Below, in pieces: positions 1 to 21,696 of a stretch of DNA of 64,000 bases (its first letter is position 1; each line of letters opens with the position of its first letter). Source of the DNA: Pirellulales bacterium (GTDB lineage: Bacteria; Planctomycetota; Planctomycetia; Pirellulales; JALHPA01); NCBI GenBank assembly GCA_033762255.1, contig JANRLT010000044.1, positions 62,001-126,000 of the forward strand, read 5' to 3'. The notes below the pieces were generated by a model. It was not told the origin of the DNA. It saw only the letters and a program-made list of their open reading frames with translations, and made no database searches. Both the position numbers and the translations under genes were made by a program.

Positions 1-3000
1 CCCCCTCAACCGCTCCATGCTGCAAATTCACCCAATGCGCCCGGGGCGTGGCCAGTAAACTTTCCCACTGGGCCAGCGGCAAACCACGAATTTGGCGGTC
101 CAGCGGCTTCGCTCCCGCCAACCAAGAGAGACCAATTTTTGGCCCAGGCCCCAACTGCGACAGTCGGGCCTGCCATTCACCTAAACGCCGGGGGTCGGGG
201 GACAACAGTTGGGTTTGAGCGGGAAAATCCTGGATCCGGTTGCGTAAAATTCCGGGCAGGCTACCAGCGGCAATTTGAAAATCCAACCGTAACTCGGCGG
301 GGCTGCGCCAATTTGCCTCTGTCCCCCGTGGGCAGGGGATAATCCTGGCCCGCGGGAAGGCCCGCTTCCAACAGGCCAGCAGGCGCGGGTCGCACAATAT
401 GGACACTTCCGCCGCTTGGCGCAAAACATCGGGATAACATGTGGCAAACATCACCTCGTCCCCCAGGCCTTGCTCGGCATGGATCAAGATTCGCTTGCCA
501 GCCAAGGATTCCCCCCGCCACTCGGGTATTCCAACGTCGCGGCACTGCGTGGCGGAATCCGGACACTGCCAACGCCATTCGTAGGCCCGCCAGCCCGCCT
601 GGTAGTTTCCTTGATATAGCCGTGCAAAAGCCAAACTAGCCTGGGCCAACGGATAAGCCCGCGCGCCGCTACAATCCAACGCGCGTTCATAGCAAGCGAT
701 CGCGTCGTCCAATGCCCCTTGTTGGGCCAGCATCATCCCTAACGAATGATGCAGTTCGCGTTGATCGGGCCGAATCCGCAGCGCTCGGCGATAACATTCT
801 TCCGCCTGCGATGCCTCTCCCGCCTGGGCGTAAATTGTTCCCAGCCGCACCACCGCTTCATAACAATCCGCGTCGTGGGACAATGCCGCTTGGTAAGCGC
901 GCTTCGCCTCGGCGAAATTTGTCAGTTTTTCACATATCGTTCCCAAGCGAACGTATGCCGCGGAAGTTGGCTGCGCGATGCATATTTTCTCTAATTGTAT
1001 TTTAGCCGTCGCCCAATCTTGATCCTGGCAGCAAATCTCCGCCAGGAGCGAGCGCGCCTGCAGATTTTCCGCTTTGGCACGCAGCAGTTGTTCCAAAATT
1101 CCCCTTGCGGGGTCGAATTGACACCGGGATATCAACTCCTGGGCCTGCTGCAATAACGTTTGCTGGTTGGCGGGGGTGTTTTGGGTGGCTGCTGTGTCCT
1201 GGGTGGCGGGAGAAAATGGAACTTTTACCCCCGACTGTGAGAGAGCGTTCCTGGCGTCAAGAGCGGGAATGGGGTTGATTGGGTTACTGGAGTTGGAACC
1301 ATGGGGGGGGATGCTGGATTTATCGTTGGTCATCTCACGGGGGGAGATGTTGGTATTTTCGTTGTTTATCTCACGGGGTGGGGTGAGGACATTTTCGTTG
1401 GTCATCTCACGGAGTGAGATGAGGACATTGTGGTCCGACGCGGGGGGTGGGCTGAGAAGCTGTTTTTCCAATTTAGCTAATTCCACGGTTGCGCGTTCAT
1501 AGCCCGGCAAGAGCTCCAAAGCGCGGCGGTAACAGGCGATCGCTTCGTCCGTGCGGCCCGCGCCGGCGTAGGCCACCGCCAGATCACAGCGGCGCTGGGG
1601 GACCATTTCCGCCGTGGCCAAGGCCCGCTGCAGACAGCGTATCGCCAGGTCATAGCGCTCCTGCTTGATTGCCACCAGGCCCAGACAATGCAGCGCGGAG
1701 GGAAATTTGGGGGCGATGGTCAAAATTTGCCGTAACAGCCGTTCGGCTTCGGTGTAATCGGTCCGTTCATATGCTTGTTTGGCCTGTTCCAAAATTTGCG
1801 GAAAACTCTCGATCGTGGCGGCGGCGGAAAATTGCGTATGATCCAGCCAGACATGTTGGGCCAGCGGCGGCAGGGAGGGTTCGTTGATTCGCTCGATAGG
1901 GGGGCAGGGGATTGTTTTCAATAGGTCCGCTTGTGCCACGGCGGGAGCGGCCAAGACTCCGGCCAGCATCCGCCGCATCGCCGCCAGCACGCCGGGCCAC
2001 TGGTTGCGTTGGACCTGGCGAAAGAGCCGCACCGTTTTGTACCAGGGACTTTCGTCGCCGCGAATCATCCACCTCCAAGAGGGAATCATGGGGAGGAGCG
2101 TCCAAGCGGGTGTTCCCACCGCACCCGCCAGATGCACCGTGGCATTTCCAACCGAAATCACCAAATCCAGCGCGGCGATCTTGGCCGCAAAGCTATCCAC
2201 ATCGATAAGCGGATCTCCTTGTTCCCAATCATGCAGCGTCACGCCAAACAAGTCTTGGACTTCTTGGCGATCCTCGCTGGCGTCGCCGTATTGTAAATTG
2301 ATGAATTTAATGCCGGGGGTTTGCAAGATTCCCCCCCACAGATCCAACGGGATGGAACGTTTTCGGCGTTCCAGGGGCTTTCCCCCGGCCCGCCAACTGA
2401 TGCCAATTTTTAATCCCGGACCCAGTGACGCAAATTTTTGCCGCCACGCGTTTACCAATGCGGGATCAGGCGTTAAGAACCGCTGCCGCCGGGGAAACGC
2501 CGACAACGTGGGCCGAAAGTGCAAGGGAAGACTTCCCATGGGTAACTGATAATGAATTTCTTCTTTTACCTGGCAAGGAAGCCGATCTTTGCGCCGCAAA
2601 TAACCATACACAATCGCCTGGGGAAAGCTGCGGCGAAAGAGCTTTTCCAACCGCGGCTCACAGACAATCACCACCCTGCCAGCTCGTTCTAACAGATCGG
2701 GCAAACAGCTACAAAATACAATTTCATCTCCCAATCCTTGCTCGGCATGGACCAGAATCGTTTTGCCCGTTAAATCCTCCCCTTGCCAGCGGGGTTGGGG
2801 ATAATGATCAAATTCGACCTCTCCCACGGGGCCGCGCGCCTCGTACCCTTCCCAACCCGGTCCATAATTTCCCAGGTGCAGATTACAAATCCCCAGGTTC
2901 CACTTGGCCCGCACATAGTTGGGATCGATCGTGAGGGCGTGTTGATATTCGCGAATGGCTTCTTCCAGGGAACCTTGCTCCCGGTAAGAATTTCCCAGGT

Positions 3001-5965
3001 TGTAGCGGGCCAAGACGCAATTTGGCAGGACGGCGACCGCTTTTTGCGCCCAATGCGTGGCGTCCGCATAGCGCTCTTGCTGCTCCATGATGCCGCTCAG
3101 GTTGACATAACTGGCCTGAAAATCGGGCTTCAGCGCCAACACCCGCAAGAAGCACTCATAGGCCAATTTTTGCTCGTGCCGCTCTAAATAGCAGACACCC
3201 AATTCGAACGGCATGGCAAAATTTTGGGGATCGGCGATGCAGGCCTGGCGCAGGCTATGGATCGCGGCGGGCAGATCACCCCGCTTGCGTTGGCCCACCC
3301 CCAGAATCCGCAGTGCGATCGCGTGGCGGGGTTGAATGGCCAGGATACGTTCGGCCAGTTCCGCGGCCGTGGCAAAATCCTCGGCATTGAAGAGCGTGGC
3401 CGCCCGTTCCAGCAATCCCCGCGCGGCGGGAGAGTGTATTTCCGTCTGGGGAAATCGGAACGTGGCATCCGTCGATTGTTCGGCTTGCAGCCAGGGGAGC
3501 TCCTCGGTAATGGACGCCAGCGATGATGGCAAACCGTGATCGGACGGCGTTTGAGCGCCGTCTGGAACTGTCACCGAGCCAACCGAGGAAGAAATTTCCG
3601 ACACAGGGGAACCGGTGCCAAAACTTGCGGGCGACACCTGAGACCGCGCACAGGCAACCTGTGCCCGCAACTGTTCCAGGTTTTGGGCCACGGATTGATG
3701 ATTGGCATCCAGCCGCATAACTTGTTCAAAACAAGCAATTGCCTGCCCATAATCATGCTGCGCTTGCCAGACGCAGCCCAGGTTATTCCAGGCGGCGGCA
3801 TAATCCGGGGCCAAGGCCACCGCCTGTTGAAACGCGGCAATCGCCCGCTCGGGCTGGCGTAGATCAATCGCCACCCCACCTAAAAAATTAAATACCTTGG
3901 GATTGCGGGGCGCAATTTCGCGGGCATGTTCCAGCGTCTCCCAGGCGGCGTTAAAGTCTCCCGCTCCCCGCTGGGCCAGCGCGCAGCCCAGCCACCCTTC
4001 CACCCGTTCCGGCCAACGGGTAATCGTGGTTTGAAACGTGGCCAAAGCCAGGGCGGTATTCCCGCAAGCCAGCGCTGTTTCGGCCAAATCCTGGTGGATG
4101 GCGTAATCATCATTTGATAATTCGCGGGCCCGTTGCAAACTGCGCAAGGCCAAATCCCAGCGTTCGGTCTGCTTGGCAATGTGCGCCAGCAGACTCCAGG
4201 CTGCGGATTGTCGCGGCGCGTGGACTAAAATTTCATCTGTCAGTCGCTCGGCGGCCAATAAATCCCGTTCCGCAAATAATTGCCGCGCCTGGGATAGCGC
4301 CGCAGCAAAATCAAAACTTCCCGTCGGAGTGCGAAATTGCCGGGTATGGTGATTCATAAGCTTTGTTTCCTGGATATCCAACTGACTTGACGAAAATGGC
4401 AACGATACATTATCGAGTGGTGGCTCTGGGCCAGGCTGACTCGTGGCGGCACTAAAAGTAGGCTGTGAATTCCAGTGGGGAAACACTAGCGACAACCGTG
4501 CAAACAAACCCAGCCAGGATTCCCCCGGCGATTGCCGCCAAGCCCTTACCGAGGGATACCAGGGAAGGCTATCCCCGCGTAATTGCCACCTCCAAGAGGG
4601 CACCGTGGGCAAGACCACCCAAGCCGGGATTCCTAACGCTCCGGCTAGATGGACCGTGGTGTTTCCGACGGCAACAACCAGGTCCAGCCCCGCCACGAGC
4701 GCCGCAAAATCCGTGAATCGAGTCAGAGGATCAGCGGCGGGGAAATCATGGATGACAATCCCCGTGTCGCGGGAAAAATCGTTTATTTCCCGCGAGGTTT
4801 CGCCGTACTGCAAATTGATCCACTGCGCGCCGGGAGTTTTTAATAAGGGGAGCCAATCCCGCAATTGAGTGGAGCGGCGAGCCCGTTCACGGGGATGTCC
4901 CCCCGCCCGCCAGGAAATTCCGACCTTGACCCCGGATCCTAGCTGGCCCAGCCGTTGTCGCCAGACGGCGGATAGTTCGGAAGGAAGGGCGAGATAAGCA
5001 TTTTCCCGTGGCGGGATGATTTCCGCGGATTGCAATAATCCGGGCAAATCCCCGGCGGGAAGCCAATAATCCACGCGCGTGTCCAGCAAGGTTTCGACCG
5101 GACAAGGAGCGCGATCCTGGCGGCGCTCGTAGCCGATAACCCGGACGTTGGCAAAGGAGTCTGCGAACAGTTCTTGCAAACGGGGTTCGCAAACCAAGAT
5201 CACCCGTCCCGCATGCCGCGCAAATTCCCGCAGATTACCGGCAAAGAAAATTTCATCACCCAGGCCTTGCTCGGCGACGACCACGATCGTCCGCCCCGCG
5301 GCTTGAGAAAGTCGTGCCAACCGTGGAAAAGCGTAATTATCCTGAACGACTTCGCCAGCCGCTTCCCGCCAGACATATTCCGGCCAGCCCCGGATAAAAT
5401 CCCCCGTCAATAAGTAACATGTCGCCAAATTCCAGTGCGCCGCGGCAAAATCGGGCTGGATCTCTAGAGCCCGCTGGTAACGGTTAATTGCGGTGCCTAC
5501 CTCGCCCAACTGGCGTTCAATATTTCCCAGATTATATTGGGCTATCGCGTGACCGGGATCCACGGAAACAGCGTCCTGCAAACGCAGGCGGGCCTGGACC
5601 AAATCACCACGCTTCTCGCACAGATTTCCCCAATTGACCAACGGCTCCGCCCAGTCCGGGGAGAGTTGATGCGCGCGGGCAAAGGCGTTCGTGGCGGCGG
5701 GCCAGCGCTCGGCGCGTTGCAAGGAACAACCATAGGCAAACCACAATTCCGCGCAGTCCGCCCCATGAGCCAGCGCCTGTTCCAGCACCGCCACACTGAA
5801 TTGCGTCCGACCAGCGGCGCGCAGCTCGGTTCCCAACCGAATGGCCTCGGCCACTTCCGGGCGAATCGCGGATTTGCCGGCGCGTACGAAGAGCGGGGCC
5901 TGGTCCAGCGTATTTTTGGACAGGGCCGTCGTCAGTCTGCAAGGCGCTTCTTGCGCAATGTTCAT
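1..5965 (-). CDS. Giant TPR-glycosyltransferase repeat protein (3' end outside window)
   Basis: One reading frame stays open from an ATG at 5965 to the left edge, at least 1,988 codons; I checked this frame for stops along its length and found none. It holds three modules, each a run of tetratricopeptide repeats followed by a glycosyltransferase-9-like half. The hallmark EQGLGDE appears three times, near residues 232, 1073 and 1830, each followed by a conserved CEPRL or CDPRL segment. The first two modules also show a later HLAGA(L/V)G and SWRW segment; the third is cut by the window edge. Such fusions in planctomycetes are annotated as TPR-containing glycosyltransferases. It lies directly downstream of flagellin on the same strand, behind the flagellin terminator, so flagellin glycosylation is a reasonable inference, not shown. 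An internal Met at 4357 could start a separate module-2 protein, but nothing interrupts the frame there. Confidence 0.85.
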   Translation of the reverse strand, partial: MNIAQEAPCRLTTALSKNTLDQAPLFVRAGKSAIRPEVAEAIRLGTELRAAGRTQFSVAVLEQALAHGADCAELWFAYGCSLQRAERWPAATNAFARAHQLSPDWAEPLVNWGNLCEKRGDLVQARLRLQDAVSVDPGHAIAQYNLGNIERQLGEVGTAINRYQRALEIQPDFAAAHWNLATCYLLTGDFIRGWPEYVWREAAGEVVQDNYAFPRLARLSQAAGRTIVVVAEQGLGDEIFFAGNLREFARHAGRVILVCEPRLQELFADSFANVRVIGYERRQDRAPCPVETLLDTRVDYWLPAGDLPGLLQSAEIIPPRENAYLALPSELSAVWRQRLGQLGSGVKVGISWRAGGHPRERARRSTQLRDWLPLLKTPGAQWINLQYGETSREINDFSRDTGIVIHDFPAADPLTRFTDFAALVAGLDLVVAVGNTTVHLAGALGIPAWVVLPTVPSWRWQLRGDSLPWYPSVRAWRQSPGESWLGLFARLSLVFPHWNSQPTFSAATSQPGPEPPLDNVSLPFSSSQLDIQETKLMNHHTRQFRTPTGSFDFAAALSQARQLFAERDLLAAERLTDEILVHAPRQSAAWSLLAHIAKQTERWDLALRSLQRARELSNDDYAIHQDLAETALACGNTALALATFQTTITRWPERVEGWLGCALAQRGAGDFNAAWETLEHAREIAPRNPKVFNFLGGVAIDLRQPERAIAAFQQAVALAPDYAAAWNNLGCVWQAQHDYGQAIACFEQVMRLDANHQSVAQNLEQLRAQVACARSQVSPASFGTGSPVSEISSSVGSVTVPDGAQTPSDHGLPSSLASITEELPWLQAEQSTDATFRFPQTEIHSPAARGLLERAATLFNAEDFATAAELAERILAIQPRHAIALRILGVGQRKRGDLPAAIHSLRQACIADPQNFAMPFELGVCYLERHEQKLAYECFLRVLALKPDFQASYVNLSGIMEQQERYADATHWAQKAVAVLPNCVLARYNLGNSYREQGSLEEAIREYQHALTIDPNYVRAKWNLGICNLHLGNYGPGWEGYEARGPVGEVEFDHYPQPRWQGEDLTGKTILVHAEQGLGDEIVFCSCLPDLLERAGRVVIVCEPRLEKLFRRSFPQAIVYGYLRRKDRLPCQVKEEIHYQLPMGSLPLHFRPTLSAFPRRQRFLTPDPALVNAWRQKFASLGPGLKIGISWRAGGKPLERRKRSIPLDLWGGILQTPGIKFINLQYGDASEDRQEVQDLFGVTLHDWEQGDPLIDVDSFAAKIAALDLVISVGNATVHLAGAVGTPAWTLLPMIPSWRWMIRGDESPWYKTVRLFRQVQRNQWPGVLAAMRRMLAGVLAAPAVAQADLLKTIPCPPIERINEPSLPPLAQHVWLDHTQFSAAATIESFPQILEQAKQAYERTDYTEAERLLRQILTIAPKFPSALHCLGLVAIKQERYDLAIRCLQRALATAEMVPQRRCDLAVAYAGAGRTDEAIACYRRALELLPGYERATVELAKLEKQLLSPPPASDHNVLISLREMTNENVLTPPREINNENTNISPREMTNDKSSIPPHGSNSSNPINPIPALDARNALSQSGVKVPFSPATQDTAATQNTPANQQTLLQQAQELISRCQFDPARGILEQLLRAKAENLQARSLLAEICCQDQDWATAKIQLEKICIAQPTSAAYVRLGTICEKLTNFAEAKRAYQAALSHDADCYEAVVRLGTIYAQAGEASQAEECYRRALRIRPDQRELHHSLGMMLAQQGALDDAIACYERALDCSGARAYPLAQASLAFARLYQGNYQAGWRAYEWRWQCPDSATQCRDVGIPEWRGESLAGKRILIHAEQGLGDEVMFATCYPDVLRQAAEVSILCDPRLLACWKRAFPRARIIPCPRGTEANWRSPAELRLDFQIAAGSLPGILRNRIQDFPAQTQLLSPDPRRLGEWQARLSQLGPGPKIGLSWLAGAKPLDRQIRGLPLAQWESLLATPRAHWVNLQHGAVEG
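1323..1430. repeat. Three in-frame 36-bp tandem repeats inside the TPR-glycosyltransferase gene
   Basis: The string TCGTTG(GTC/TTT)ATCTCACGG recurs at 1323, 1359 and 1395, an exact 36-bp spacing. This keeps frame and encodes three 12-residue units built on REMTNEN in the linker before the TPRs of module 3. The third unit contains the palindrome CTCACGGAGTGAG, the same core found in the repeats at 57181-57348. Confidence 0.85.
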
Positions 5966-6277
5966 GACACTCAGCGAGTTGCCAACAAAATCCAATGTTG
6001 CGTCAAGCTTGCCCGATCCGCGGTCAACTCCCCAGTCTTCCCGGCCCAGGCATTTGTGACGTGTTATTAAAGTTCGTCATTCGCGGGGGCGTTTCTGCGC
6101 AGAATTTGAGTTTGCCGCTGGAAATGATTAATTCGAATGCTTAATATGCGGATTATGCATAACATGCGCAAGCCAGAACGGTCGGATAAAATGTTCTTCT
6201 TGCTAGCAATTCCCCTTTATGCCTCCCGCATGGGCGGAGCGATGCCTTGATCCCCGGGGTCGCGGCTCTGGCCGCCC
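5966..6277. other. Non-coding gap between flagellin terminator and TPR-glycosyltransferase gene
   Basis: About 310 bases with no credible gene. It must hold the leader of the minus-strand TPR-glycosyltransferase gene. I see no convincing ribosome binding site before its ATG and no clear promoter boxes. Confidence 0.6.
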
Positions 6278-6319
6278 CCCAAAAAAAACGAAAAAACCCA
6301 CGGCCAGCAGGCCGTGGGT
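6278..6319 (-). terminator. Rho-independent terminator of flagellin
   Basis: On the minus strand ACCCACGGCC and GGCCGTGGGT form a 10-bp stem with a four-base loop, followed by TTTTTT, CG and a second T-run. It sits 47 bases past the flagellin stop and separates it from the glycosyltransferase gene. Confidence 0.92.
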
Positions 6320-6366
6320 TTGTCGCTATCCCGACAGTCGCAAAATGTCTGTTACCGTGGCCCGGC

Positions 6367-8730
6367 TTATCGCAGCAGGGACAGGATATTTTGCGGATTT
6401 TGGTTGGTGATCTGCAACACTGACGTGCCGGACTGGACCAGAATCTGGGCCCGAGTGAGGCGGGCGCTTTCCGCGGCAAAGTCGGCGTCGCGAATAGAGC
6501 TTTCGGCCTCTGTCAGGTTTTCCAGGGCGTCATTGAGCGTGGTGATGTTCGTTTCCAAAGTCGTCTTTTGGAACGCACCCAGCCGCCCGCGAAGTCCGGA
6601 GACGGCGGAGATCACTTCATCCACGACCTTGGCGGCACCCTTGGTGTCGCTGTCCAGGTCCTTGGCGCCACCGGAACGAAGTTCGTATAGCTTGCCGCTC
6701 ACGCCACCCAGGGTGGAGGTGCTAACCCCCTGGATCCCCAAGCGGGCTTGCTGGTTGCTGACCACGTCGGGACCGATTTGGAAGTTGGCCCCGCCGCCGG
6801 TGATGGAAAAGCTGAAGGAATCGCCGTCGGCCAGGTTTTGGTTGACGGTAAAGCTCAAGTCCAGCGTGCTGGTGTTGAGCGTGGTCTTGAGGCCATTCCC
6901 GATCGCCTGCACGCCATTGATACGGGTAGAGACGTCGGTGCCAATGGTCCGGTCGGTGGCCGTGCCGCTCAGGTTGACGGTGTTAAACGAACCGGTGAGG
7001 GCCTTGGCCTGGACAAAGGCATCGCTGCCGAACTCCACGCTGGTCAACCGCAGCACCGAGCCGGAAACCGTTCCGGAAGTCACATTCGCGGAAACCCCGG
7101 TGGCATCCGAAACCAGGTTGATCGCGTCGCGGATCTGAGTCACGGTGCTTCCCGTGCCAAAATTGAACGTCTCAAAGCCCCCCTTGCCGCCGACTTGCAA
7201 AATCAGGTCGCTACTCAGCGTGCCGCCGGAGTAATACAACGTACTTTGGGTCGCCTGGCGGTCCACCCGCACGTCGACGGTAATGGAAGAGGCGGTCCCA
7301 AAGTTAGCCTGGTCGATCTTGAGGTCGCTTAGGTTGGCATTTCCCGTGGCACCGCCGGTGGTGGCGGCGCTGATGGTGCCGGCGGTCAACACACCCTGGC
7401 CATTCCCCAAAGCCGTGGCGCTGAACACGCCGTTGGCGTTGATAGCGGTGGCGACCTGGCTGCTGGTGGCCGCGGCGCTACGCGAGATCGTCAGCGTGTT
7501 GCTGGCGGTGTCATAGCTGGCGCGGGCGGCCGCGTCCGAGGTCGCGATTACGACATTGGTATTGGAATAGGTCGGACCGCCCGTGGAGGCGGACAGCAGA
7601 ATCCGGTTGCTGTTCGTTCCCCCCGTCGTGGCCGAAGTCGTCGACCCCGCGGCGTAAACACCCAATCCCGCGGCGGCTTGGGCACTGGCCTGAAAGACCC
7701 CGCCCGCGTTAATCGCACTGACGACGGCGGCGGTGTTGCCGGCGGCGCTGACGCTGATACTGAGGGTGTTGGTCGCGGTGTCAAAGCTAGCCCGTGCGGC
7801 GGCGTCGGAGATCGAGATCGTCACGGTGGCGTTATAAGCGGCCCCGCCATTCACGGCGGAGAGGCTAATCTTGTTATTGAACGCCCCGCCGGCCAGCGTG
7901 GCGCTGTATTTGTCACCTTCCGCCGCACCGCCCGAGAAAATCGTTCCCGCGGTCACGACCGCGGCGGAAATTCCCGTAGAGCCGGTGAGGGCGTTCACCA
8001 GGGTCGCGACATTGGCCGCGGTGGTGCCGGCGGTCAGCGTCACGGTCAGGGTGTTGCTGGCGAACGTGGCGCTGGCGGTTCCGCCCGAATCAAAGACATA
8101 TTCAACCTTGGCCCCGTTCAAGGTCGAACCGGCGCTAATCGCGGTAAAGGATAATCCGCCCAGGCCGGCTCCGCCGCTGAGGGTGACGGTGGCGTTGGCG
8201 TCGACCGCGGCTCCAAAAGAACCAGTCGCAGCCGCGTCAACGGCCGTGCCAATGGTGCCTGTGGCCTTCGGATCCGTCGTCCCGACGCTGCTGGTCAAAA
8301 AGTCCAGGCTGCCGTCCAGCAACCGCCGACCCTGGAAGGATGTTGTTTGCGCGATCCGGTCGATGGCTTCCAGGGAAGAATCGACTTGCAATTGATTGGC
8401 CGCGATTTGCTCTTCGCTAAGTGCCCCGCTATTTGCCGCTTCCGACACCAGCCCACGGATGTCGTTGAGCAGAGAGCTGACCTGGCTTAAGGCGCTGTCA
8501 GCGGTGGCAATAATTTGATTTGCCCGTTCGCTATTCGTAATGGCCCGTTGCGTGGCCACGATATCCGACCGCAGAATTTCACTGGCAATCAAACCGGCGG
8601 GGTCATCCTTACCCTTGTTGATTCGTAAGCCAGTGCTCAATCGAGTCAACGATGTCTGCAAATCGTTGTTCGATCTCGCCAATGCTTTTTGAGCGACAAG
8701 TGAGCTGACATTGGTGTTAATACGGGACAT
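6367..8730 (-). CDS. fliC: Flagellin, 787 aa with large variable insert
   Basis: Flagellar filament subunit. The N-terminal D0/D1 block (MSRINTNVSSLVAQ, then LSTGLRINKGKDDPAG) and the C-terminal block ending in QNPQNILSLLR are typical and form the coiled-coil core. Between them lie about 500 residues rich in Ala, Thr, Ser and Gly, with repeated units built around SDAAARAS(F/Y)DTA.NTL.IS and AINA.GVF, which are flagellin hook (IN-type) motifs. Many flagellins are 270-500 residues, so the exposed domain is enlarged. The ATG at 8730 has GAGGGG eight bases upstream; a GTG three codons earlier would lie almost on that site, so I reject it. CsrA and FliW are encoded just upstream, and a sigma-28-like promoter precedes it. 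Confidence 0.95.
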   Translation of the reverse strand: MSRINTNVSSLVAQKALARSNNDLQTSLTRLSTGLRINKGKDDPAGLIASEILRSDIVATQRAITNSERANQIIATADSALSQVSSLLNDIRGLVSEAANSGALSEEQIAANQLQVDSSLEAIDRIAQTTSFQGRRLLDGSLDFLTSSVGTTDPKATGTIGTAVDAAATGSFGAAVDANATVTLSGGAGLGGLSFTAISAGSTLNGAKVEYVFDSGGTASATFASNTLTVTLTAGTTAANVATLVNALTGSTGISAAVVTAGTIFSGGAAEGDKYSATLAGGAFNNKISLSAVNGGAAYNATVTISISDAAARASFDTATNTLSISVSAAGNTAAVVSAINAGGVFQASAQAAAGLGVYAAGSTTSATTGGTNSNRILLSASTGGPTYSNTNVVIATSDAAARASYDTASNTLTISRSAAATSSQVATAINANGVFSATALGNGQGVLTAGTISAATTGGATGNANLSDLKIDQANFGTASSITVDVRVDRQATQSTLYYSGGTLSSDLILQVGGKGGFETFNFGTGSTVTQIRDAINLVSDATGVSANVTSGTVSGSVLRLTSVEFGSDAFVQAKALTGSFNTVNLSGTATDRTIGTDVSTRINGVQAIGNGLKTTLNTSTLDLSFTVNQNLADGDSFSFSITGGGANFQIGPDVVSNQQARLGIQGVSTSTLGGVSGKLYELRSGGAKDLDSDTKGAAKVVDEVISAVSGLRGRLGAFQKTTLETNITTLNDALENLTEAESSIRDADFAAESARLTRAQILVQSGTSVLQITNQNPQNILSLLR

Positions 8731-8942
8731 GCAAGACACCCCTCAAAGGTAAACAAGGAACAATGCCCAAACTGGAATTACGTGCGCGGGGAGTTTCGCC
8801 GCGATCCAAGTTTGACGGTGTGACGCGCCCATCCACCGGGCATCGCTGCGCACCTGTTAAACTGATATCAAATGCGCCTGACCACGGGAGGGGCTTCCAC
8901 CCCGCGACGGCAGCGCAGTCGAGACTACGGTCTCTGGAAACT

Positions 8943-9128: not shown

Positions 9129-9371
9129 TTATCCACTTAACCCGTTGCGTCCCGCCGGCTTACCCAATTGCTGCGCGTCCTTGGGATCCAGGCGGCTCGA
9201 CCGCTGATTTTCCCGTTGAATCGCTTCGTACACTTCCTGGCGGTGGACCGGGATCTCGCTGGGGGCGTTGATCCCCAACCGCACCTTGTCACCACGAATA
9301 TCGACAATCGTCACCACGATGTTATCACCGATGATGATGCTTTCGTCGCGCTGTCTCGACAACACAAGCAT
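9129..9371 (-). CDS. csrA: Carbon storage regulator CsrA
   Basis: RNA-binding translational regulator, 80 residues. The N-terminus MLVLSRQRDESIIIGDNI, then VRLGI.AP.EIPVHR.E and an IQRENQ helix, are diagnostic. The start at 9371 is fixed by an AAAGGAG site six bases upstream; a longer reading from 9494 is not supported. The tail after IQRENQ is about 25 residues, longer than in the 61-residue E. coli protein, as in many FliW-linked CsrAs. In such systems CsrA represses flagellin translation and is titrated by FliW; both partners and the target are adjacent here. Confidence 0.95.
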   Translation of the reverse strand: MLVLSRQRDESIIIGDNIVVTIVDIRGDKVRLGINAPSEIPVHRQEVYEAIQRENQRSSRLDPKDAQQLGKPAGRNGLSG

Positions 9372-9595: not shown

Positions 9596-10036
9596 CTATG
9601 CGGAGATCCGCAGACGCGCCGGTTCCTGGTCCAATTCATACTGCACCGACAGATCATTATTGGCGATCACCTGCCGACCCACCCGACGCTCTTCATGAAT
9701 CACCAATGGCGCCCGCAAATTCAGCGTCATCCCCCGCTCGTTTTTTCCCACGATTACCAGCACCTGGGCCTGCGACAGATCGTCCAGGGCCAGCGGCAAT
9801 AGTTCTCCGCGGGAAACGCGCAATTGATAATCCGGGACAAAACGCCGGGGACTCACCACGGCAAATGCCAAATCGGCCTGGGTAAGGCTTTGCAGCCAAC
9901 CAAGGGCCTCATTTGTGGCATCCGCCAGCAGCACCCAGTGGCGGCACTCTTCCATTCCAAGCAAGCCGTTGGGAAACAGCAGGACGTCGTCGGCCCGCAT
10001 CTCCACGCGGCCAAATCGTGTGGTCATAACCAACAT
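9596..10036 (-). CDS. fliW: Flagellar assembly factor FliW
   Basis: FliW binds CsrA and flagellin in a partner switch that couples flagellin synthesis to export. The 146-residue protein has the family pattern TTRFGRVEMRADDVLLFPNGLLGMEE near the start (split here: TTRFGRVEM, then FPNGLLGMEE), FAVVSPRRFVPDY mid-protein and NLRAPLVI towards the end. GGAGG lies five bases before the ATG at 10036, which overrules a longer reading from 10201. It is followed 224 bases later by csrA on the same strand. Confidence 0.93.
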   Translation of the reverse strand: MLVMTTRFGRVEMRADDVLLFPNGLLGMEECRHWVLLADATNEALGWLQSLTQADLAFAVVSPRRFVPDYQLRVSRGELLPLALDDLSQAQVLVIVGKNERGMTLNLRAPLVIHEERRVGRQVIANNDLSVQYELDQEPARLRISA

Positions 10037-10258
10037 GGCAACCTCCGTGTAACCATTAAATCCGGTAGGCACAATCCCGTTGCAAAGCAGGCTCGCCTTC
10101 CTTGCAAGCACCCACCGGCGAAAGAAATCTAGCTCCCGTTGGGGGAACACCCCATTCATCGGAAAGAATGATAGCTTTGGTAAAAGAAAAAAATGCGGCA
10201 AACTAGAAAATTTGGATAATCCGCAATGAATGGGGGTTTATGGGGCCATGGAAAAACT

Positions 10259-21580: not shown

Positions 21581-21696
21581 GACGGCAGCCGATGAGTGAC
21601 CCACAACACCTGAAAAGTATTGCTTATGGCTGCTGATGTTACTCCCTGACCAGGTTCACAGCTTCCCACCGTGTGGGCCACTCATAGGCGACCGTC
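21581..21696 (-). ncRNA. ffs: Signal recognition particle RNA, small bacterial type
   Basis: Read on the minus strand, the 5' arm (GACGGTCGCC, then ATGAGTGGCCCACA) pairs with the 3' arm (TGTGGGTCACTCAT, then CGGCTGCCGTC) to give a long hairpin of about 116 nt. The conserved Ffh-binding region is present as GTGAACCTGGTCAGG on one side and AGCAGCC on the other. The apical ten bases are GAGTAACATC, read as a UAAC (URRC-class) tetraloop in place of the common GGAA. The position just upstream of dnaX matches the order known from Bacillus. Promoter boxes lie just upstream. Confidence 0.9.

Follow-up and report, generated by a model that had tools for sequence, protein, structure and literature searches.

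The window, a stretch of 64,000 nucleotides (G000:C44:62001-126000), begins on its minus strand with a single open frame that covers positions 2-5995, holds 1,998 codons in the ORF list and runs off the window edge. The first-pass annotation had described one uninterrupted frame of at least 1,988 codons with three TPR-glycosyltransferase modules, which agrees with the frame and the three GT domains found here, and had proposed that the rest of the gene be obtained. The genome contig completes the giant ORF at 2,138 residues (L003 11580-17996, minus strand, from contig C44 of G000), with fliD next. The order on the minus strand is fliW, csrA, flagellin, terminator, giant gene and fliD, and the features within the window are as follows.

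9596..10201, minus strand: fliW, flagellar assembly factor and CsrA antagonist (Pfam)
9129..9371 (from ATG), minus strand: csrA, regulator of flagellin translation (Pfam)
6367..8730, minus strand: flagellin, presumed acceptor, 787 aa from ATG (ORF 6367-8739); Flagellin_N and Flagellin_C well above cut-off (Pfam)
6294..6321, minus strand: strong intrinsic terminator in the gap between flagellin and the giant gene, 12-pair stem and T tract
1..5995, minus strand: 5' part of the giant triple TPR-GT gene, 1,998 of 2,138 codons; extends to G000:C44:61579 outside the window
5411..5863, minus strand: module 1 TPR region, residues 45-195
4460..5410, minus strand: module 1 GT domain, residues 196-512; AEQGLGDE at 241, VGNTTVH at 443
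3596..4318, minus strand: module 2, first TPR stretch, residues 560-800
2882..3343, minus strand: module 2, second TPR stretch, adjoining the GT domain, residues 885-1038
1946..2881, minus strand: module 2 GT domain, residues 1039-1350; the best-conserved module, with a predicted GT9-like GT-B fold
1406..1783, minus strand: module 3, first TPR stretch, residues 1405-1530
1199..1405, minus strand: low-complexity linker within module 3, read from the sequence, residues 1531-1599
614..1198, minus strand: module 3, second TPR stretch, residues 1600-1794
1..613, minus strand: module 3 GT domain, residues 1795-2110; cut at the window edge and completed in L003

For the giant gene, ATG 5965 is a more likely start codon than TTG 5995. 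The earlier description of this gene as lying directly downstream of flagellin was correct as to adjacency, but 372 nt separate the flagellin stop from the first possible start of the giant gene, and as this gap holds the 12-pair terminator, the two genes are probably not transcribed together as a simple unit here. In G001, which belongs to the same family, the giant triple ORF begins 3 nt past the flagellin stop, and because the same triple ORF stands directly after flagellin there, its occurrence is not due to chance. Scans for sigma-28 and sigma-54 patterns near the genes gave matches no commoner than expected by chance. The fliD gene directly after the giant gene (L003:7903-11331, minus strand) encodes a long FliD (1,142 aa), which matches Flagellin_IN weakly. 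The bacterial small SRP RNA is found at 21588-21686 of the window on the minus strand (Rfam RF00169, 47.8 bits), and a DUF1559 pilin-like protein, from a family suggestive of Planctomycetota, is encoded nearby.

Each of the three GT domains of the giant protein is preceded by TPRs, and the domains are marked, at residues 196-506, 1041-1350 and 1795-2110, by three repeats of AEQGLGDE...GISW/GLSW...VGN(A/T)TVHLAG; EQGLGDE, VGN(A/T)TVHLAG and PWY are present in all three modules. By analogy with GT9, the Asp of each loop (D247, D1090 and D1846) may be catalytic. Pfam finds many TPRs (best 7.8e-75), a Glyco_transf_9 match of 19.5 bits that is below the cut-off of 22, and no match to the GT41 catalytic domain. 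Pairwise identities among the three GT domains in the module alignment are 47.5, 39.7 and 43.9%. A search of the linkers for fossil start codons gave a single in-frame ATG, near residue 547 between modules 1 and 2, without a clear ribosome-binding site.

As modelled with AF2 (27 rows; pLDDT 91, pTM 0.85), module 2 is a TPR superhelix leading into a GT-B fold, and the matches of the whole module in the fold search were SPINDLY and OGT. When the GT domain was modelled alone (pLDDT 87), the best fold match was 3tov (Z 18.7, rmsd 3.2, 262 aligned), followed among GT9 structures by WaaC (Z 16.7) and the heptosyltransferase TibC (Z 16.4), whereas bacterial OGT (GT41) reached Z 9.4. Searched by sequence against the PDB, the GT domain on its own gave no match. 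According to the models, the layout is that of TPR-OGT and the catalytic domain is GT9-like. The likeness to OGT and SPINDLY lies in the TPR superhelix preceding a GT-B domain and in the presumed protein O-glycosylation, but the GT domain here is nearer to GT9 and lacks the GT41 Pfam match. The GT9 heptosyltransferases (3tov, WaaC, TibC), in turn, share its GT-domain fold (Z 16-19), but the identity is ~12% and GT9 enzymes have no TPRs; in addition, domain II of HldE, the ADP-heptose enzyme, was not found in G000.

Caulobacter FlmG is a protein of 596 residues in which the N-terminal TPR domain binds flagellins, and their modification with pseudaminic acid requires the C-terminal GT-B domain (PMC7591256). 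FlmG loci were obtained by a genome search with Caulobacter flagellin, and the query was checked against solved structures. In the C. vibrioides locus L113, an ORF of 596 aa lies ~2.3 kb from flagellin and is matched by the three-module HMM with 247 bits over residues 278-590. We consider this ORF to be FlmG on the basis of its length, architecture and position, not annotation. FlmG (CCNA_01524) and the giant protein have the TPR and GT-B architecture and EQGxGDE in common, and their GT domains are homologous over the full length, with 39-41% identity between the L113 protein and each of the three modules. However, FlmG has one module in 596 aa and the giant three in 2,138 aa, the donor-side motif is FSNATINLAG in FlmG and VGNATVHLAG in the giant, and FlmG transfers pseudaminic acid, the pathway for which was not found in G000. 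Judged by its sequence, the giant belongs to the FlmG type of flagellar glycosyltransferases, with three modules fused together; its catalysis, its acceptor and the division of labour between modules we infer. Maf (PF01973) has the same presumed role but belongs to an unrelated family. It was considered as the alternative enzyme of the order and rejected, as PF01973 is nearly absent from the relatives and missing from G000.

We sampled 57 genomes of the same order, 36 with a flagellin-family match and 21 without, and took a best match of >370 bits as a close relative of the module. Such relatives were found in 10/36 flagellated genomes, from six families, and in 0/21 non-flagellated ones (one-sided p 0.006, ignoring relatedness); the giant gene in non-flagellated relatives, which the first-pass annotation had named as the observation that would speak against its proposal, was thus looked for and is not present in any of these 21 genomes. 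The ten array genomes carry 1-5 modules beside flagellin and/or fliD, and these are fused, split or single. One ORF of three modules is found in each of G000, G001 and G035, an ORF of three modules and one of one in G045, an ORF of four and one of one in G002, an ORF of one and one of two in each of G011, G017 and G033, and a single module in G022, while in G055 the array is split by contig ends. Flagellin, array and fliD are contiguous in G000, G001, G002, G022, G035 and G045, the array is beside flagellin in G055, and it is beside fliD with flagellin on another contig in G011, G017 and G033, so that 7/10 arrays adjoin flagellin. In 11 loci without an array, fliD directly follows flagellin. 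Flagella in the order can do without the array, since 26/36 flagellated relatives lack it.

This distribution bears on the explanation that the giant is a TPR-glycosyltransferase of general use, acting on surface polysaccharides or other proteins and found in the flagellar locus by chance. Non-flagellated relatives do have TPR-GT paralogs at non-flagellar sites, as many as 26, but a quick tree sets such non-flagellar TPR-GTs of the order apart from FlmG and the flagellar-locus modules as a clade of their own (SH-aLRT 100), and they read EQGLGDTxQF with SDT or SDS on the donor side, whereas EQGxGDE..F is the usual reading in the flagellar-locus modules, FlmG and the Azospirillum modules. Furthermore, the position of the array is conserved across six families, a synteny that contradicts the general role and makes it highly improbable. 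The flagellin-directed TPR-glycosyltransferase proposed from the window is, on the other hand, favoured by the homology to FlmG, the synteny across genomes and the restriction to flagellated genomes. As to the GDT-type TPR-GTs themselves, the non-flagellated G051 and G030 have 26 and 16 matches, several of them in tandem, and G005 has two neighbouring giant ORFs (1,693 and 1,981 aa; L078:3679-14949) that contain several GDT-type TPR-GT domains in degraded form.

Comparison of the modules for recent duplication, also advised in the first-pass annotation, indicated that they are not recent duplicates, as their identity is 40-48% and orthologs are found in other families. In the tree, module 1 of G000 pairs with that of G001 (support 98/96), and so does module 2 (100/99), which is joined by module 2 of G017 and G033 (99/94) and of G035 (96/90), whether fused or split. 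The grouping of module 3 is weaker than that of modules 1 and 2, and module 2 has the shortest branches. The duplications are old, given that other genomes carry orthologs of modules 1 and 2, and the module types predate both the families and the present gene boundaries. The module 3 orthologs in G017, G033 and G035 (L067, L069 and L070) have broken loops (EQSPADE, EQGLADE and EQHLDDE) and altered donor-side motifs, and look as if they were turning non-catalytic. The earlier suggestion that the modules may differ in specificity gains from this in that their non-equivalence is supported by the orthology of modules 1 and 2, the unequal rates and the decayed motifs of module 3 in relatives, though this falls short of proof. 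A further, tentative possibility is that catalysis is confined to one or two modules, while the rest, and most of all module 3, bind the acceptor or act as a scaffold; the decay in the three relatives and the short branches of module 2 would fit with this, but the modules of G000 all keep EQGLGDE, VGN(A/T)TVHLAG and PWY.

Outside the order, a protein search of plasmids gave relatives mostly in Azospirillum. Plasmid p1 of A. brasilense Sp7 carries a triple TPR-GT ORF of 1,994 aa (L105:9970-15954) ~550 nt from a flagellin of 624 aa, and next to the triple ORF a double TPR-GT ORF of 1,230 aa. The Sp7 polar flagellin, which by its size is presumably the 624-aa gene, has a predicted mass of 65 kDa and migrates at 100 kDa owing to glycosylation (PMC12826043, PMC3958885), and bears a repetitive glycan chain (PMC3958885). 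The literature search found no published function for the Azospirillum giant TPR-GTs, and the 1,994- and 1,230-aa ORFs are candidates for the known glycosylation of this flagellin. Like the giant gene here, the Azospirillum gene has three TPR-GT modules in one ORF beside flagellin, but its modules are closer to one another (59-68% identity) and form their own clade, and the Azospirillum triple form therefore appears to have arisen separately and later.

The repetitive glycan of a strain with a triple enzyme would suit an enzyme whose modules act in sequence as an oligosaccharide assembly line, with one module priming Ser/Thr and the others extending the chain. The modules of the order, which are orthologous across genomes yet diverged and differ in rates and motif-end residues, would also agree with such ordered action. 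However, TPRs are kept in all three modules, which suits protein binding more than glycan extension, the module number in relatives varies from 1 to 5 with a single module in G022, and the Azospirillum modules, being young duplicates, are poor candidates for distinct linkages. We therefore regard ordered extension as rather doubtful. No evidence was seen for the processive enzyme suggested in the first-pass annotation.

The flagellin of G000 contains 26.6% Ser+Thr in its central region, and across genomes this proportion is 27.2% in array genomes compared to 22.3% in others (p 0.0009, ignoring relatedness). Exceptions are L095 and L100, from relatives without the array, which also have Ser/Thr-rich flagellins. 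The flagellin was earlier described as enlarged, which does not hold within the order: its 787 aa are below the median of ~1,000 aa, and the median length is 797 aa in array genomes versus 1,011 aa in the others. Two tandem flagellins, each >1,000 aa, are found in G018 (L085:3124-9789). The acceptor could instead be FliD or another filament-tip protein, as the arrays of G011, G017 and G033 stand beside fliD with flagellin on another contig, and the FliD of G000 reaches 1,142 aa; two single-module GDE-type TPR-GT genes are also divergent to fliD in G180, which belongs to another order of the class (L190:6200-13294). Nevertheless, most arrays (7/10) adjoin flagellin, FlmG acts on flagellin, and the Ser/Thr enrichment was found in flagellin, the protein that the comparison covered, so FliD in place of flagellin is an unlikely acceptor.

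Regarding the sugar, G000 has a NeuB/NeuC/CMP-sugar-synthase-like cluster on another contig, and its NeuB is a closer match to NeuB_NnaB than to PseI, though neither reaches the cut-off. The presence of NeuB was tried as a predictor of the array and rejected, as no link was seen. For PseB, nothing in G000 scored above the generic SDR level, HldE domain II is present in 4/10 array genomes but not in G000, and full NeuB is missing from the array genomes G022, G035 and G055. The donor here is for these reasons probably not pseudaminic acid or ADP-heptose, and may possibly be a common nucleotide sugar or a sialic-acid-like sugar.

Taken as a whole, we find it quite likely that the giant is a cytoplasmic FlmG-type O-glycosyltransferase of the flagellar filament with three TPR and GT modules in one chain, the catalysis, acceptor and division of labour being deduced from its relatives and surroundings. 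Each TPR superhelix would bind flagellin, and perhaps FliD too, before export, as the TPR domain does in Caulobacter FlmG. The GT-B domain that follows, GT9-like in fold, would then use a nucleotide-sugar donor to add a sugar at Ser/Thr residues in the variable central part. On this view the modules are old non-equivalent paralogs that started as separate neighbouring genes, as they still do in some relatives, or were such genes at one time, with module 2 the most constrained. A more speculative extension, which we consider conceivable but not probable, is that the three modules of the single chain have distinct conserved roles, at different sites or with ordered sugars, on one captured flagellin before export, and that multi-module enzymes evolved independently here and in Azospirillum.

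The FlmG class of cytoplasmic flagellin O-glycosyltransferases has been defined recently and was described as a one-module enzyme. What is new here is the fused multi-module form with its conserved, seemingly non-equivalent modules, and the occurrence of the class outside Proteobacteria, in an apparently planctomycete lineage where, according to our literature search, flagellin glycosylation seems unstudied. A candidate gene is also supplied for the long-known glycosylation of the A. brasilense polar flagellin. The natural versions with one, two, three, four and five modules, both fused and split, could provide a good system for studying how TPR-GTs share sites or sugars, and would likewise be useful for asking why repeated modules have been joined in one chain.
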